A DNA stretch of 47,101 nucleotides. It comes from Candidatus Saccharibacteria bacterium HGW-Saccharibacteria-1. GTDB taxonomy: Bacteria > Patescibacteriota > Saccharimonadia > Saccharimonadales > Saccharimonadaceae. Of this stretch, positions 37,001 to 47,100 are shown piece by piece. Numbering within the stretch: the first letter of the stretch is position 1; each line of letters opens with the position of its first letter. A program made the translations under genes and the position numbers. The notes under the pieces were generated by a model that was not told the DNA's origin, did not search any database, and was given only the letters and a program-made list of their open reading frames with translations. The DNA lies in contig PGXZ01000001.1 of the NCBI GenBank assembly GCA_002839415.1, forward strand, positions 121,259 through 168,359, given 5' to 3'.

Positions 37001-37810
37001 ATGTTTAAACGTTTACTAAATTTATTTGACAAATTAAGGCCAATTGAAACACTAAATGTTGGCTTTGATTCTGGTGGTAGATTCAAGCCGACTATCGTGA
37101 TGTTGCATGGAATTGGTGCAACGTATAAAACCTGGGATGTTTTAAATGCCGAACTTGAGACCTCTAAATATAGAATTATTGCAATTGATTTATTGGGCTG
37201 TGGTTTATCGCCAAAGCCTAGGCTGTGTCAGTATAGTGTCGATGATCATGTTAAGTATTTACGAAAAACAATAAAAAAATTAAAAATACGTAGGCCCTTT
37301 AAAATTGTTGGACATTCGATGGGCTCTATTATAGCCGCTAAATACTGCAGGCTGTACCCAAGCCGAATAAAAGAAGTATTTTTGCTTAGTTTACCGATTT
37401 ATTTTAAAGATAATAAAAACGTTAATTTTTCACACAAACGTACAGACTTTTATCTAAAAGCTTATGAATTTATATCTCAAAAAAAAGATTTGACAATTAA
37501 ATATTCAAAACATGTTCGTAACATCCTGCGAATTAAGGACGGAATAAATATTGACGAGGATTCCTGGGATGGTTTTAGTAGGTCACTAAGGAATACTATT
37601 ATTAAACAAAATACATTTGATGATATATCTAATTTAAAGTTACCCGTACATATAATTTTCGGTGCATTGGACGAGTTTTTAGTGCAAGAAAACGTATACA
37701 AATTAGATAAATTTAAAAATGTAGACATTACGAAATTGAGTGGAATAAATCACACGATTACACCCCGTTTCGCAAAAAGTGTAGCTGAAATCATAAATAA
37801 GTCCTATTGA
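37001..37810 (+). CDS. alpha/beta hydrolase
   Basis: 269 aa. VMLHGIGATYKTWDVL (oxyanion), DLLGCGLSPKP, nucleophile elbow IVGHSMGSIIA, acidic residue in FGALDEF and catalytic His in INHTITPR: a complete triad. Substrate unknown; the class includes esterases, lipases and C-C hydrolases. AATATATG sequence directly before the start implies a leaderless message. The 120-bp gap upstream holds nothing else. Confidence 0.9.
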   Translation: MFKRLLNLFDKLRPIETLNVGFDSGGRFKPTIVMLHGIGATYKTWDVLNAELETSKYRIIAIDLLGCGLSPKPRLCQYSVDDHVKYLRKTIKKLKIRRPFKIVGHSMGSIIAAKYCRLYPSRIKEVFLLSLPIYFKDNKNVNFSHKRTDFYLKAYEFISQKKDLTIKYSKHVRNILRIKDGINIDEDSWDGFSRSLRNTIIKQNTFDDISNLKLPVHIIFGALDEFLVQENVYKLDKFKNVDITKLSGINHTITPRFAKSVAEIINKSY

Positions 37811-38346: not shown

Positions 38347-39246
38347 ATGATTAGTAAGCAGGCAAAGGTTATCAAGAAAATATTAAAAGCTTCTAATAAG
38401 AAATTGGAGCATAATATCAAGCATACCCTTGAAAAACGTAAAAAATACGAAAAAAGCTTGACCGCTATTAAATTATTATCCAGAAAATCAAAAATTGAGT
38501 GGACTGACGTTGAGGGTGTTAGGGTTGCATGGGTTAGTCCGCTTGTTGAAGACGTGGAACGTACAATCATATATATCCACGGTGGTGGTTTTGTTTACGG
38601 TCTTTCTGCGGTTCATGTGGCCTACGTCGATCGATTAGCAGAGGTTTGTCGAGCAAAGGTGTTATTGATCGATTATAGTTTGTCGCCCGAAGCTCGGTTT
38701 CCAGTTGCTTTGAATGAAATCTATAAAATCTGGAAACACTTAATTAACGATGGGCTTGATCCTAGTAAAGCAGTTTTAATGGGTGATTCAGCTGGGGCAA
38801 GTTTGTCAATCTCGGTCGCATTGAAACTTAGGAGTAATCAATTACCTCAGCCTTCGTGCTTAGTGCTTTTTTCGCCATCCGTTGACAGTACTCTGGGTCA
38901 AGAAAGTTATATTTATAATAATGACAAAGATATTATTTTAGACAAAGAAATTATGGACTATTTTGTTGACTCGTATGTCGGACAGACTGATCGAACTGAT
39001 GTTTTAATATCACCAATACGAGCTGATTTACATAGTTTACCATCATTGTTATTACAAGTTGGGTCTGATGAAGTTTTACTTGATGAGTGTAAAATATTTG
39101 TTGAAAATGCAAAAAGAGACGGCGTTGATGCGACGTTAAAGATTGGAAAGGGTATGTGGCACAACTGGCATTTGTCAGCTGAGCGTATGCCCGAATCAAG
39201 TGAGTCATTAAAAACAGTTGCCGACTTTATTGCCGGCAACTGTTAA
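38347..39246 (+). CDS. alpha/beta hydrolase, HSL-family esterase
   Basis: 299 aa. Hormone-sensitive-lipase family motifs: IIYIHGGGFVYG (HGGG oxyanion), VLMGDSAGASLSISV (GDSAG nucleophile), acidic residue in VGSDEVLLDE and His in GMWHNWHL. Acts on short-chain acyl esters. Preceded by an N-terminal Lys-rich helix. Follows the Nudix gene by 3 nt; an inverted repeat overlaps its last codons and stop. Confidence 0.92.
   Translation: MISKQAKVIKKILKASNKKLEHNIKHTLEKRKKYEKSLTAIKLLSRKSKIEWTDVEGVRVAWVSPLVEDVERTIIYIHGGGFVYGLSAVHVAYVDRLAEVCRAKVLLIDYSLSPEARFPVALNEIYKIWKHLINDGLDPSKAVLMGDSAGASLSISVALKLRSNQLPQPSCLVLFSPSVDSTLGQESYIYNNDKDIILDKEIMDYFVDSYVGQTDRTDVLISPIRADLHSLPSLLLQVGSDEVLLDECKIFVENAKRDGVDATLKIGKGMWHNWHLSAERMPESSESLKTVADFIAGNC
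39213..39244. terminator. inverted repeat overlapping the esterase stop codon
   Basis: AACAGTTGCCG / CGGCAACTGTT, perfect 11-bp stem with a 10-nt loop, spanning the last codons and stop at the convergent esterase/phosphoketolase junction. The T-tract is poor, so termination is only probable. Confidence 0.6.
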
Positions 39247-42521: not shown

Positions 42522-43349
42522 ATGAAATTATTAGATGGACTAGAATTATCTGGTTATATAAAAGAGCGACAACTCAAACAGTCGCGCGCGCTTCGTCAAT
42601 CGTGGCGAGTAGTTCCGCGCATAGCGATTATTTACACAGGTAACGATCCTGTAATCAACACCTATATGCGCCTTAAGAGCGAGTATGGTAAGGATATTAT
42701 GGTCGAAGTTGATATTTATAATCCATCTGTAGCTGAATTGTTAAACCAGATAAAATCATTGAATAATGACGAAAATGTTCACGGAATAATTGTTCAACTG
42801 CCACTTGCAGACATTTCGCAAACCGAAGAGGCTATTGCCGCTATCAGTGAAGAAAAAGACGTAGATGGCTTGAGGGGTGGATTGGATTTTATCCCAGCTA
42901 CGGCTATGGCGATTGATTGGCTTCTAGCGGGCTATAATGTTAATTTATCTGGCAAGAAAATTGCAATTGTTGGCAACGGTCGTTTGGTTGGCGCTCCATT
43001 GTCAAATTTATGGACAAAGGCTGGTTTAGATGTGTCGGTTTATGACATCAACACAAACAATCTGGCAGATGAAATTAAATCATCAGAAATTATTGTTACT
43101 GCAACTGGCAATCCCAACTTAATCAATAGTGAAATGATAAGTCCGAAATCTGTCGTGGTTGATGCCGGAACGGCCTCTGAGCATGGCAAAATTGTTGGTG
43201 ATTTAGCAGCTGATGTTCGCCAGAGGCAAGATTTAACTATTACACCAGAAAAGGGCGGTGTTGGTCCACTGACTGTTGCGGCGTTGTTTGATAACGTACT
43301 GCTCGCCGCGCGAAAAGTGGCTGATAAAAAAGGTCAACAGGATATTTAA
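42522..43349 (+). CDS. folD: bifunctional methylenetetrahydrofolate dehydrogenase/cyclohydrolase
   Basis: 275 aa. Tyr48 and Lys52 of the catalytic motif (INTYMRLKSEYGKDI), GIIVQLPLADI, EKDVDGL, Rossmann NADP site IVGNGRLVGAPLSNL, TATGNPNLI and the C-terminal GGVGPLTVAALFDNVL are present. It interconverts 5,10-methylene-THF and 10-formyl-THF. Odd points: the usual PCTP segment is replaced by IPATAMA, and VGxSxxVGxP by VGNGRLVGAP, so the nucleotide/folate pocket is divergent. Its last 4 nt overlap the convergent response regulator gene. Confidence 0.94.
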   Translation: MKLLDGLELSGYIKERQLKQSRALRQSWRVVPRIAIIYTGNDPVINTYMRLKSEYGKDIMVEVDIYNPSVAELLNQIKSLNNDENVHGIIVQLPLADISQTEEAIAAISEEKDVDGLRGGLDFIPATAMAIDWLLAGYNVNLSGKKIAIVGNGRLVGAPLSNLWTKAGLDVSVYDINTNNLADEIKSSEIIVTATGNPNLINSEMISPKSVVVDAGTASEHGKIVGDLAADVRQRQDLTITPEKGGVGPLTVAALFDNVLLAARKVADKKGQQDI

Positions 43350-43717
43350 ATTAAATTCAAAGCTTCTTTGACGCGTTGGGCAACTTGTCGCGGCGTTAAG
43401 TTGGCTTTAACGATATAGCTATGTATGCCGAGTGAGCGGAGTTTTTTTGGAGCTTCCTCTTCGCCGAGGTTAGTAAGGATTATAACTGGTGTATTTTTAC
43501 CCCATTCATTTTGTCGGATAATTTCGAGAGCCTCAACACCATTCATTTCTGGCATTTGAAGGTCTAATAGTATAATATCTGGCGTAAAAGCCTCGACTAG
43601 TTCAACGCCATACTTGCCATTATTTGCCAGTTGCACATCAAAGCCGTCTGCCTCAAATTTCATGCGATACATTTGGCTGATAACTTGGTCGTCTTCGATT
43701 ATAGCAATTTTTGTCAT
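43346..43717 (-). CDS. single-domain response regulator (CheY-like receiver)
   Basis: 123 aa, receiver domain only. Acidic pocket IIEDDQ (Asp9/Asp10), phosphoacceptor Asp in IILLDLQMPEMNG (about residue 52), Thr in VIILTNLG and Lys in SYIVKANLTP. No output domain, so it acts by protein contact. No kinase is adjacent; the nearest is the broken kinase at 45-47.1 kb. TATACA 6 nt before the ATG suggests a leaderless transcript. Confidence 0.95.
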   Translation of the reverse strand: MTKIAIIEDDQVISQMYRMKFEADGFDVQLANNGKYGVELVEAFTPDIILLDLQMPEMNGVEALEIIRQNEWGKNTPVIILTNLGEEEAPKKLRSLGIHSYIVKANLTPRQVAQRVKEALNLI

Positions 43718-43729: not shown

Positions 43730-43818
43730 CAATGATACGTTATCGCGTGCATCCGTACAAGAGCTTGTGGTATAATGACAATTAGAATACTTGAATAATT
43801 ATAAATATAGGTGATAAT

Positions 43819-44160
43819 ATGCTTGATTTAGCTCCGATGATTTATCGACAACGTCTCGTGATGGAGGCGTTTCCTAAAAAGGCCATTGCAGCCGATGAGA
43901 TCAAAGAATATCTCTCTGGTTTGTCTAAAGTAACTGACATGAACCAGCTAATAGAGCCTGTTACGCATTGTAGTGATATGTACGGTTGGGCTGGTTGGAT
44001 ACACTGGGAAACATCTGGTGCTCATTTTTATGCCTGGGAGCGTCCAATTTTGTTTTATAGTGTAGATGTCTATACTTGCAAAAAATTTGACCCACAGGTC
44101 GCCATTGAATACACAAGAAATTTCTTTAATAGCGATACGATTGAGTTCAAGGAGTTTTAG
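43819..44160 (+). CDS. SpeD-like (AdoMet decarboxylase family) pyruvoyl-type protein
   Basis: 113 aa, the length of prokaryotic SpeD. It aligns with class 1B AdoMet decarboxylase: self-cleavage segment HWETSGAHFYAWER in place of ESHISIHTWPE, so Ser66 (future pyruvoyl) is kept but preceded by Thr rather than Glu, and the His after it is Gly. The following block FYSVDVYTCKKFDPQVAIEY retains catalytic Cys87 (cf. DVFTCG). SpeD homologues with altered pockets in CPR bacteria have been shown to be arginine or ornithine decarboxylases, so the substrate may not be AdoMet. RBS AGGTGAT before the ATG; the next gene starts 3 nt after the stop. Confidence 0.75.
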   Translation: MLDLAPMIYRQRLVMEAFPKKAIAADEIKEYLSGLSKVTDMNQLIEPVTHCSDMYGWAGWIHWETSGAHFYAWERPILFYSVDVYTCKKFDPQVAIEYTRNFFNSDTIEFKEF

Positions 44161-44162
44161 AG

Positions 44163-44963
44163 GTGGAGCGTGATTGCGGCAATTGTAATGAGATTGTAAA
44201 GCCGCAATACGACATATCAATTGATAATACCATTGATTTAACGGCAGAACTTTTACTTGAAAATTCTGAAAAAGCTTTGCATACCAAAGAAATTGTTATC
44301 GAGGTCGCCGGGGATAGTAAATTTGCTAATCTGGGTCGATATGTCGAGTCAGTGGTTTTTGAAAAATCTTTTGGAAATGATAGCGTAGAGATGGCTGAAG
44401 CTTATAAGGATTACGAGAAATCTAGCCGTTTCAATATCTGTATTGACACCGAATCGTCTAGGCCTATCGGCGCTATTAGAATTATAGAAAACGCGGATAG
44501 TGGCCTTAAAACATTAAATGACATATCGGATTCGCCATTTAATGTTGATATTGATGAATTTATCAAGCAGCGTAATATCGATGATTTAATTAAAGTTTGG
44601 GACGTGGGTACTGTTGCAGTTTTGCCAGAGTTTCAAAGCAGTGGGGCGAGTATTTTATTGTTTAGAGCAATGTACACCTCGGCCTTGAGGAATGGTATTG
44701 ACCATATAGTCTCGGTAATTGATGAAAAGCCGTTTAAATTGTTAACGAAATATTTCTCTGTCCCGTTTGTACCGATAATCGATGGCTTAGAGCCTTTGCC
44801 GTATATGGGATCAAATAAAAGCCACGCTGTTTATGGCTATGTGCCGAGATTTTTTGACGAAATGAGCAAAAGTAACAGTCGCATTAGCAATAAATTCTCA
44901 AAAATCTTTAACACCTTGGTTATGGGTGATGATGATAATTTAATAGTTCCATTGCAAAAATAA
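44163..44963 (+). CDS. GNAT-fold acyltransferase resembling autoinducer synthases (LuxI-like)
   Basis: 266 aa. After a 40-residue N-terminal extension with CGNC, the order of elements matches the GNAT fold as in LuxI/PEP-CTERM-associated acyltransferases: RYVESVVFEKSF, DYEKSSRFNICIDTESSRPIGAIRII, then VWDVGTVAVLPEFQSSGASILLFRAMYTSA, NGIDHIVSVIDEKPFKLL. The acyl-CoA/ACP-binding loop is not the standard Q/RxxGxG/A of typical acetyltransferases but FQSSGAS. GTG start with AAGGAG 8 nt upstream, 2 nt after the SpeD-like gene: an obvious functional pair. I infer N-acylation of the decarboxylation product; LuxI resemblance is by eye. Confidence 0.72.
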   Translation: MERDCGNCNEIVKPQYDISIDNTIDLTAELLLENSEKALHTKEIVIEVAGDSKFANLGRYVESVVFEKSFGNDSVEMAEAYKDYEKSSRFNICIDTESSRPIGAIRIIENADSGLKTLNDISDSPFNVDIDEFIKQRNIDDLIKVWDVGTVAVLPEFQSSGASILLFRAMYTSALRNGIDHIVSVIDEKPFKLLTKYFSVPFVPIIDGLEPLPYMGSNKSHAVYGYVPRFFDEMSKSNSRISNKFSKIFNTLVMGDDDNLIVPLQK

Positions 44964-45001: not shown

Positions 45002-46411
45002 ATGGAAAGCATTATTCTAGTTATTACGTGCTTCGTAAACCTAGCCTTGGGTTTATTTATATTGCTTCATGATCCTAGGGCTAAATTTGCTCAAATATTC
45101 GCCGTGATGAGCTTTTTTATTTGTGTTTGGACTTTTGTAAACTACGCCACAAACAGCTATGCTGGTAATCTTCATTTAAACGACGTGGCCAATAAACTAG
45201 CTTATGTTAGTGGCTATGGTGTTGTTTTTTTTGGTTTACTATTTACTTATTATTTCCCAATAAGACGCAAATTTTCTAGATTAGAAATTATTATATTAAC
45301 AATAACTAGCTTGTCGTTAGCCATCTTGTCCTGCACCAGTCTAGTATCGGGTGAAGTGATTTTATTAAATGATGGTACGCTGCAGTTTTCGATTGGCCCG
45401 TTAATTAGTGTTTATATATATGGTTTTCTTATACTAATAGTACTTATAGCTAAAAATTTAATTAAGGCTTCAAGGGATCTTGATCACGATCACAAGATGC
45501 AGGCTAATTTGGTTTCGGTGGCTTTTTGCATTAGTGCCTTTGGGGGGTTATTTCTGAATGTCTTGATTCCACTGGCTTTAAACAACTGGAGCTTGACTAT
45601 GTTTGGTCCGCTCACAACAATCGTCCTAGTTGTTGTAATTGTTTATGCGATTATCAGACATGGGCTGTTTGATATAAGGTTGGCGTTGGTTCGTACATTT
45701 GCTTATGTTCTTTCCTTAACTGTATTTGTGGTAGGTTACTATTTATTGGCGTACTTATTGTCGATCCTAGTGCTTGGCTCTAGTACTTTCTTTAATGAGC
45801 AAAATGGCTTGAGTATTGTAATTGCGCTAGTTTTAGCTTCTTTTTTTCAACCTGTCAAAAGATTATTTGACCGCTTAACTAATGCAATTTTCTATAAAGA
45901 TAATTATAACAGCGATGAGTTTTTTGCTCGTATTAACCGAATTGCAACTCAGACTACTGATCTTTACGATTTGATTAGAAGTTCGTCAGGTGAAATAGAA
46001 AAAACAATTAAACTTGAACAGGTTGTTTTTGCTATTATAAATGAGCAAAAAACTTTCTCGATAGGAACTGGCCATCATATCAGAATGCCTCACTCTGATG
46101 TTCTAAAATTAAAAGATTTTATTAGTAGTGATTCATATCGAATTGTCGAGGATGGCTTTATCGGAAGCGCTACTCTCGACCACCAAACCAAACGTCTCCT
46201 AATAAGCCACAAACTAGAACTAATAATTCCACTGACAGTCTCTAAAAAAATAGTCGGTATCTTGTGTCTTGGGTTTCCGATGAGTTATCTATTGCAATTC
46301 AAAATGCCCTTGCGATTCAAGAAATTCGCGACCTTAACGACAGCTTGCAACAAAAGATATCCAATGCCACCAAAGAGCTACGCGCCAGCAATGCTCAGCT
46401 GCAACGTCTAG
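45002..46411 (+). CDS. sensor histidine kinase, N-terminal part (7TM sensor plus GAF-like), frameshifted
   Basis: 469 codons to the first stop. Eight or so hydrophobic segments (residues about 1-270) form a histidine-kinase N-terminal 7TM-type sensor (LYVSGYG-like core: NKLAYVSGYGVVFFGLLF; IIRHGLFDIRLALVRTFAY), followed by a linker (FFQPVKRLFDRLTNAIFYKDNY) and a GAF-like domain ending at VSKKIVGILCLG. After that (about 46270) the sequence loses kinase character and runs to a stop. The kinase core continues in another frame. Base composition also flips inside this gene from about 46.1 kb. Either a true lesion or a mis-join. Confidence 0.8.
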   Translation: MESIILVITCFVNLALGLFILLHDPRAKFAQIFAVMSFFICVWTFVNYATNSYAGNLHLNDVANKLAYVSGYGVVFFGLLFTYYFPIRRKFSRLEIIILTITSLSLAILSCTSLVSGEVILLNDGTLQFSIGPLISVYIYGFLILIVLIAKNLIKASRDLDHDHKMQANLVSVAFCISAFGGLFLNVLIPLALNNWSLTMFGPLTTIVLVVVIVYAIIRHGLFDIRLALVRTFAYVLSLTVFVVGYYLLAYLLSILVLGSSTFFNEQNGLSIVIALVLASFFQPVKRLFDRLTNAIFYKDNYNSDEFFARINRIATQTTDLYDLIRSSSGEIEKTIKLEQVVFAIINEQKTFSIGTGHHIRMPHSDVLKLKDFISSDSYRIVEDGFIGSATLDHQTKRLLISHKLELIIPLTVSKKIVGILCLGFPMSYLLQFKMPLRFKKFATLTTACNKRYPMPPKSYAPAMLSCNV

Positions 46412-47100
46412 ACAAGGCAAAGGATGAATTTGTCAGTATGGCTAGTCACCAGCTCCGTACGCCCTTAACGACCGTCAAGGGCTATATAAGTATGGTAGTA
46501 GAAGGCGACGCCGGTGAAATCACTAGCGAACAACGCCGCCTACTTGATGAAGCCTTTATGAGTAGTGAACGTATGGTTAATTTAATTAACGACTTCCTTA
46601 ACGTCTCACGTATTCAAACAGGCAAGTTTTTAATAGACAAACACGAAACCAACCTTGGCGAACTTGTTAAGCAAGAAATCGATCGACTAAAATCAAATGC
46701 CGATTCGCGTAAATTAGAATTTATCTACAAAAAACCAAAAGATTTCCCAATCATGAACATTGACGAAGCTAAAATACGCGAAGTAGTAATGAACTTTGCC
46801 GACAACGCTCTTTATTATTCTCATGAAGGTGCAAAGATTGATGTTAAATTGCACGTTGATGAAAACAATCAAGCTATATTTGAAATCATTGACACCGGCA
46901 TCGGCGTATCCCTAGAAGACCAGTCAAGGCTCTTTACTAAATTCTATCGTGCCAGCAACGCTAAAAGACAAAGACCTGACGGCACTGGCGTAGGTCTCTT
47001 CCTAGCAAAAAAAGTCATCAGCGCTCACGGCGGCAAAGTACTATTCAGCTCAGTCGAAGGCAAGGGGAGTACTTTTGGGTTTAGTTTGCCAGTTGAATAA
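46264..47100 (+). CDS. histidine kinase C-terminal part (HisKA-HATPase), out of frame with its N-terminal half
   Basis: The open frame begins VSDELSIAIQNALAIQEIRDL (end of a GAF domain and signalling helix), then a coiled coil (LQQKISNATKELRASNAQLQ), HisKA with phosphoacceptor His62 in VSMASHQLRTPLTT, N-box NFADNALYYS, G1 DTGIGV, F box LFTKFYRA and G2 GTGVGLFLAKKVI. All catalytic boxes are intact. GTG 46264 is only the first possible start in this frame and not a credible one: the piece is the continuation of the gene at 45002. Relative to a normal GAF domain about 20 codons seem missing at the junction. Confidence 0.85.
   Translation: MSWVSDELSIAIQNALAIQEIRDLNDSLQQKISNATKELRASNAQLQRLDKAKDEFVSMASHQLRTPLTTVKGYISMVVEGDAGEITSEQRRLLDEAFMSSERMVNLINDFLNVSRIQTGKFLIDKHETNLGELVKQEIDRLKSNADSRKLEFIYKKPKDFPIMNIDEAKIREVVMNFADNALYYSHEGAKIDVKLHVDENNQAIFEIIDTGIGVSLEDQSRLFTKFYRASNAKRQRPDGTGVGLFLAKKVISAHGGKVLFSSVEGKGSTFGFSLPVE

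Follow-up and report, generated by a model that had tools for sequence, protein, structure and literature searches.

We identified a two-gene cassette in which a gene for a SpeD-like protein was paired with a gene for a LuxI/FeeM-type N-acyltransferase, beside a membrane sensor. The window, that is, the whole stretch of 47,101 nucleotides that was analysed, belonged to a Candidatus Saccharibacteria genome (1.10 Mb, 98.9% complete). The two genes are tightly coupled and neighbour a membrane sensor, and some 76 genomes from Saccharibacteria and Actinobacteria carry them together. Their probable role is therefore to produce and perceive an acylated-amine signal. In full, this would be a two-enzyme pathway with its receptor, in which the SpeD-like decarboxylase and the acyltransferase make an N-acyl amine that is read by the adjacent sensor. 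Our confidence in this full reading was evenly balanced. The features of the cassette and its surroundings were as follows.

43346-43717, reverse strand: stand-alone response regulator of the CheY-like type, divergently oriented to the cassette (Response_reg E 9e-24; same place in relatives).
43809-43814, forward strand: Shine-Dalgarno-like AGGTGA upstream of the ATG of the SpeD-like gene (read directly).
43819-44160, forward strand: SpeD-like protein, 113 aa, ATG start (PF02675, AlphaFold2 model, invariant residues in 91 members).
44149-44154, forward strand: Shine-Dalgarno AAGGAG of the acyltransferase, within the 3' end of the SpeD-like gene, 8 nt from the GTG (read directly).
44163-44963, forward strand: LuxI/FeeM-type GNAT N-acyltransferase, 266 aa, GTG start, candidate signal synthase (fold matches, AlphaFold2, weak FeeM HMM).
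45002-46411, forward strand: sensor histidine kinase, N-terminal 7TM and middle part (homology to the intact G026 kinase).
46264-47100, forward strand: continuation of this kinase in a different frame, with the HisKA (E 4e-17) and HATPase_c (E 8e-26) domains.

The original prediction had placed two tightly paired reading frames here, flanked by a response regulator and a 7TM sensor kinase. Both frames were found, with a gap of 2 nt between the SpeD-like stop and the acyltransferase start. Both flanking genes were present as well, and this context was conserved in relatives. Judged from the Shine-Dalgarno site of the second gene lying inside the first, the two genes are translationally coupled. 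A promoter scan stayed near chance level. The intact kinase of the relative G026 had 716 aa in the order 7TM-GAF-HisKA-HATPase, and the kinases of relatives matched HisKA_7TM. In the window, the kinase changed frame near 46260-46290, where it looked about 50 nt shorter than the genes of relatives. The split kinase (45002-47100) looks like either an assembly error or a broken receptor. Further upstream, two alpha/beta-hydrolase-like genes (window 37001-37810 and 38347-39246) preceded a phosphoketolase gene, in an order shared with G026.

The family and fold of the SpeD-like protein were examined. The Pfam AdoMet_dc profile PF02675 matched it with E 3e-9 and 37.6 bits, above the cut-off of 25. 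An AlphaFold2 model built with a 47-sequence alignment reached a pLDDT of 97.2, and among solved structures AdoMetDC from T. maritima and from A. aeolicus matched it best (Foldseek E 2.7e-7). Compared with T. maritima AdoMetDC (1vr7), the model gave Z 14.1 and TM 0.78 over 106 residues at 2.4 Å, with 17% identity. The AdoMetDC fold was thus looked for and found, in agreement with the prediction of a SpeD homologue. Single sequences of both cassette proteins searched against the PDB with phmmer gave no credible relative for either. In comparisons with the congeners G026 and G013, pN was 0.14-0.19 and pS was 0.70-0.91, which indicated that the SpeD-like gene is under strong purifying selection. 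Family and fold would also fit an ordinary AdoMetDC of spermidine synthesis. However, the catalytic motif was altered. Spermidine synthase (SpeE, PF01564) was absent from the source genome, and the AdoMetDC equivalog TIGR03330 gave only 20.5 bits against a cut-off of 75.65. The spermidine pathway was ruled out on the last two grounds, and we considered this explanation barely conceivable.

The remodelled self-cleavage site that had been predicted, ETSGAH, was confirmed as written, and the whole motif read W-E64-T-S66-G-A-H69-F-Y71. In T. maritima AdoMetDC, the pyruvoyl group arises from S63, and processing and catalysis involve H68 and C83 (PMC10407285). Profile alignments to the solved AdoMetDCs 2iii and 1tlu placed S66 at S63, Y71 at H68 and C87 at C83. 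Ala58 occupied the position of T. maritima Ser55, which we take to have a role there. Because profile alignment brings Tyr to the position of the catalytic His and Ala58 to that of Ser55, the protein may not process itself in the known way. Alignment to the ornithine-decarboxylase-type SpeD (SpeDC) could instead put His69 at the catalytic His. These alignments suggested that the catalytic His was either replaced by Tyr71 or moved two residues to His69. S66, G67, Y71 and C87 were invariant in 91/91 unique SpeD-like members, and H69 was kept in 86/91. The Nostoc and Halioglobus plasmid copies were missing His69 and kept Ser, Tyr and Cys. Some SpeD homologues decarboxylate arginine or ornithine (PMC10407285), and such an activity had been suggested as one option for the window protein. 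This suggestion was not supported, as the diagnostic set of SpeDC consists of Gln, Thr, Phe and Tyr (PMC10407285) and Gln was absent from the active-site region (residues 44-88). If the two-enzyme reading is true, the pyruvoyl decarboxylases would gain a new SpeD subfamily in which a catalytic residue is changed.

The substitutions seen in the profile alignments, Tyr71 at the H68 position and Ala58 at Ser55, would also suit a non-processing partner of the SpeD fold whose task is ligand binding or control of the acyltransferase and not decarboxylation. The loss of H69 in distant branches and the existence of acyltransferase loci without SpeD pointed in this direction. However, invariance of S66, G67 and C87 in all members would be expected mainly if pyruvoyl chemistry were kept. 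In addition, a putative ornithine-decarboxylase-type SpeD with the canonical S..H..C substituted for the SpeD-like gene in the genome G290. We therefore judged a non-processing role quite unlikely.

The acyltransferase had been predicted to be a LuxI-like GNAT, and this was weakly reflected in its sequence and clearly reflected in its fold. The FeeM HMM (PF21926) scored 22.2 bits and so missed its cut-off of 27, and there was no match to PF00765 (Autoind_synth, LuxI). Single relatives matched Acetyltransf_5, Autoind_synth or FeeM. The AlphaFold2 model (pLDDT 94.7) was most similar to FeeM (Z 15.8, 180 residues), LasI (15.6), RpaI (15.6) and BjaI (14.9). RimI (12.2), GCN5 (about 12) and PaiA (11.7) scored lower, and the plain GNAT SACOL1063 (5jph) reached Z 15.3 over a shorter stretch of 142 residues. 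These fold scores grouped the acyltransferase structurally with the LuxI/FeeM type, without formal membership in either family. A RimI-type acetyltransferase, which had been named as the alternative, was not the best match.

The LasI, RpaI and BjaI folds would agree as well with an acyltransferase that is by itself an AHL synthase (LuxI) with a sensor kinase, where SpeD merely adjusts the AdoMet supply. In CPR, 18 LuxI homologues were reported beside sensory kinases and were read as candidate quorum-sensing systems, without SpeD (PMC7567580). The core without SpeD was also common among our loci. However, one-to-one translational pairing with SpeD over 76 loci is unexpected for a side role, and decarboxylation of AdoMet would compete with AHL synthesis. 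The Autoind_synth HMM matched only 5/41 acyltransferase relatives, even at E 0.1 or better. An AHL synthase acting alone was therefore considered very unlikely.

The two-enzyme reading drew on how the pair was conserved. Relatives of the SpeD-like protein were sought in 84,980 species genomes; 109 were found, and 80 loci were analysed. The carriers were Saccharibacteria, Micromonosporaceae, Geodermatophilaceae, Actinotalea, Mycolicibacterium sphagni and Acidimicrobiia, with one Planctomycete and one Micavibrio as outliers. The acyltransferase lay directly downstream of the SpeD-like gene in 76/80 loci, so that the predicted linkage of the pair was kept in relatives. Its start was located -10 to +5 nt from the SpeD stop in 73/80 measured pairs. 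A membrane signalling protein stood within 600 bp in 49/80 loci, being a 7TM histidine kinase in 10 and a GGDEF-EAL protein in 39. The 10 kinase-adjacent pairs came from nine Saccharibacteria and M. sphagni. The pairs without a recognised sensor within 600 bp (about 31/80) were mostly from Micromonosporaceae, and some lay at a contig edge.

The pair was not confined to Saccharibacteria, and most of the carriers found were Actinomycetota. In a concatenated tree, which was quick and had long branches, a single Saccharibacteria clade was rejected (p-AU 0.0025), and M. sphagni was placed with the group of the window (support 92). The rejection of a single clade points to repeated transfer between both phyla. 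The M. sphagni locus (L030:5863-9419) carried the SpeD-like gene, the acyltransferase and a 7TM-GAF kinase, a three-gene cassette of the Saccharibacteria type in an actinobacterial genome. In Micavibrio sp. UBA2137 (L096:5953-8614), the genes after the SpeD-like one coded for an unknown protein of 255 aa and for an enzyme with the PLP aminotransferase fold, in place of the acyltransferase. On the Acaryochloris marina plasmid pREC2 (L118:3908-5357), a gene for an unrelated double-GNAT protein directly preceded a sister SpeD-like gene. Two other readings were considered and rejected. For a phage origin, viral contigs contained no relatives of the SpeD-like protein, and PHROGs gave only the generic AdoMetDC family. 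For a defence system, PADLOC gave no credible match.

We then looked at the acyltransferase within the class of the window. Its profile was run against 393 Saccharimonadia genomes and found 32 carriers, of which 30 loci were examined. A synthase-like gene beside a membrane receptor is the arrangement of quorum-sensing modules, and a 7TM kinase lay next to or near the acyltransferase in 27/30 of these loci. The predicted sensor and regulator context was thus conserved more strongly than could be foreseen from the window. A CheY-like regulator was found in 22/30 loci, and the SpeD-like gene in only 11/30. The constant core in Saccharimonadia is the acyltransferase, the 7TM kinase and the CheY-like regulator, and the SpeD-like gene is accessory. 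In our reading, a single synthase-receptor core is combined with tailoring enzymes that can be exchanged. In the congener G010, this locus lay between the same neighbouring genes and kept the acyltransferase, kinase and regulator, and the SpeD gene was missing.

Other enzymes were seen at these loci. In G290 (L121:6313-8518), a SpeD shared a regulator/acyltransferase/7TM-kinase locus with an unknown protein of 245 aa; from the diagnostic residues of PMC10407285, we infer that this SpeD is of the ornithine-decarboxylase type. LPG_synthase_C-type genes adjoined either the acyltransferase or the SpeD-like gene (L152:2259-3155, L154:473-1375, L155:547-1455 and L068:4000-4905; the match was weak for L068, and L154 was assigned by sequence resemblance only), as if they replaced or added a tailoring step. 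Acyltransferase-ThiF fusions of 547 aa stood beside the same kinase type (L156:1141-2784 and L158:490-2133; Pfam shown for L156), and a methyltransferase was present in the acyltransferase locus L149. LPG_synthase_C-like genes, the ThiF fusion and the methyltransferase fit small-molecule tailoring.

The LPG_synthase_C-like genes, with PlsC-like genes in some loci, also bear on an envelope-lipid pathway. Here the pair would make an acyl-amine membrane lipid, such as an ornithine-lipid-like or acyl-polyamine compound, and the kinase would sense the envelope and not a secreted signal. Acetyltransf_5, a family that includes OlsB-type lipid acyltransferases, matched 12/41 acyltransferases, which favoured this explanation. 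However, the nearest folds were signal and N-acyl amino acid synthases. The constant neighbour, a 7TM kinase among the Saccharibacteria and a GGDEF-EAL protein elsewhere, was likewise no lipid gene. An envelope lipid as the product was considered unlikely.

Under the two-enzyme reading, the substrate and the acyl donor were considered next. AdoMet synthetase (MetK) was not found in the source genome. It was present in 15/20 carrier genomes, so its absence here is uninformative and AdoMet remains a possible substrate. AdoMet was backed by a single case, L123 (4234-6659, G211), where MetK was near a distant member. In that locus, the distant SpeD-like gene had as neighbours the AdoMet synthetase gene and a gene resembling nicotianamine synthase (PF03059 E 3e-20), possibly a pathway of the opine type or one derived from AdoMet in this Saccharibacterium. 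Ornithine and arginine were likewise backed by single cases, the replacement by a probable ODC-type SpeD in G290 and an ADI-family gene at L074. In this Planctomycetaceae locus (L074:5821-7562), the SpeD-like gene was followed by an arginine-deiminase-family protein, possibly an amidinotransferase. Since each substrate was backed by single cases only, no choice was made between AdoMet and ornithine or arginine.

Acyl carrier protein was not found in 20/20 carrier genomes searched, and CoaE and AMP-binding ligases were not found in the source genome. The acyl thioester must therefore be host-derived, that is, imported, or unusual. The missing ACP and AMP-binding enzyme also argue against long acyl chains, as would be expected if the acyltransferase merely acetylated a polyamine in the manner of SpeG or PaiA. 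Both SpeG and PaiA were among the structural matches, and xfp was nearby. However, PaiA scored below FeeM and the AHL synthases, the linkage to a sensor would be left unexplained, and the absence of CoaE from the source genome counted against it. Polyamine acetylation or detoxification was considered highly improbable.

The two-enzyme reading leads us to propose the following course, from the processing and decarboxylation steps through the choice of substrate and acyl donor to export and sensing. S66 of the SpeD-like protein would become the pyruvoyl group by self-processing, with C87 as proton donor and Tyr71 or His69 standing in for the usual His. The enzyme would decarboxylate AdoMet, ornithine, arginine or a related compound of amino-acid type to an amine. 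The co-translated LuxI/FeeM-type acyltransferase would N-acylate this amine, and the acyl amine would exit the cell. It would be read by the 7TM histidine kinase and the CheY-like regulator in Saccharibacteria, and by the GGDEF-EAL c-di-GMP enzyme in many Actinobacteria. The G010 locus without a SpeD gene, the sensorless pairs, the split kinase, the missing ACP, CoaE and AMP-binding ligase, and the Tyr and Ala substitutions of the profile alignment were counted against this pathway.

A broader proposal, which we put forward tentatively, is that Saccharibacteria and Actinobacteria have horizontally exchanged undescribed N-acylated-amine cell-cell signals, made through a Tyr-for-His pyruvoyl decarboxylase and a LuxI/FeeM acyltransferase. 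Saccharibacteria would then use one dialect of a modular system with a fixed core of acyltransferase and 7TM kinase, in which the tailoring enzyme (SpeD-like, ODC-type SpeD, LPG-synthase-like, ThiF or methyltransferase) is swapped between lineages. If true, this would provide a concrete signal pathway in epibiotic ultra-small bacteria and a new route to quorum-sensing-type molecules. The same pair occurs in cultured Actinobacteria (Actinoplanes, Blastococcus, Modestobacter and Mycolicibacterium sphagni), the phylum to which the known Saccharibacteria hosts belong, so strains that grow in culture are available for working out the chemistry.

The cassette was compared with known systems. In the open-access literature searched, no description of a SpeD-acyltransferase pair was found, and the text of PMC10407285 nowhere mentions an acyltransferase. 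Kinase-adjacent LuxI homologues were already reported, and a coupling to SpeD was not found in these papers. We regard the cassette as a variation on the synthase-receptor module, which is of a known kind, and its SpeD-like proteins as a new subfamily. The same fold, length, and pyruvoyl-serine and catalytic-cysteine positions are found in class 1b AdoMetDC/SpeD (T. maritima and A. aeolicus, with SpeDA and SpeDC of PMC10407285). Like the neofunctionalised arginine and ornithine decarboxylases SpeDA and SpeDC (PMC10407285), the SpeD-like protein is an anomalous SpeD without SpeE. The family of the window differs from all of these in its invariant Tyr, which profile alignment places at His68, in Ala at Ser55, the SGAHFY motif and the lack of the SpeDC-diagnostic Gln. 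It has about 17% identity to AdoMetDC/SpeD and is nearly always paired with an acyltransferase. The N-acyl amino acid synthase FeeM was the best structural match and a weak HMM match of the acyltransferase. However, the acyltransferase fell below the FeeM cut-off, has extra N- and C-terminal parts, and has a SpeD-like enzyme and a sensor as partners. The LuxI AHL synthases LasI, RpaI and BjaI share the fold (Z 15-16) and the adjacency to a sensor, and BjaI and RpaI take acyl-CoA rather than acyl-ACP. In contrast to the LuxI family, only a minority of members gave a sequence match, there is no LuxR partner, and the coupled decarboxylase would supply an amine and not AdoMet itself. In LuxM/LuxN, a synthase gene also lies beside a multi-TM sensor kinase. 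CqsA/CqsS and the CPR pairs of LuxI homologue and kinase (PMC7567580) have the same layout, in which a gene resembling a signal synthase immediately adjoins one for a multi-TM histidine kinase. Compared with these synthase and sensor-kinase pairs, the present system adds a pyruvoyl decarboxylase or another swappable enzyme, and it is shared with Actinobacteria, in which a GGDEF-EAL protein often takes the neighbouring position.
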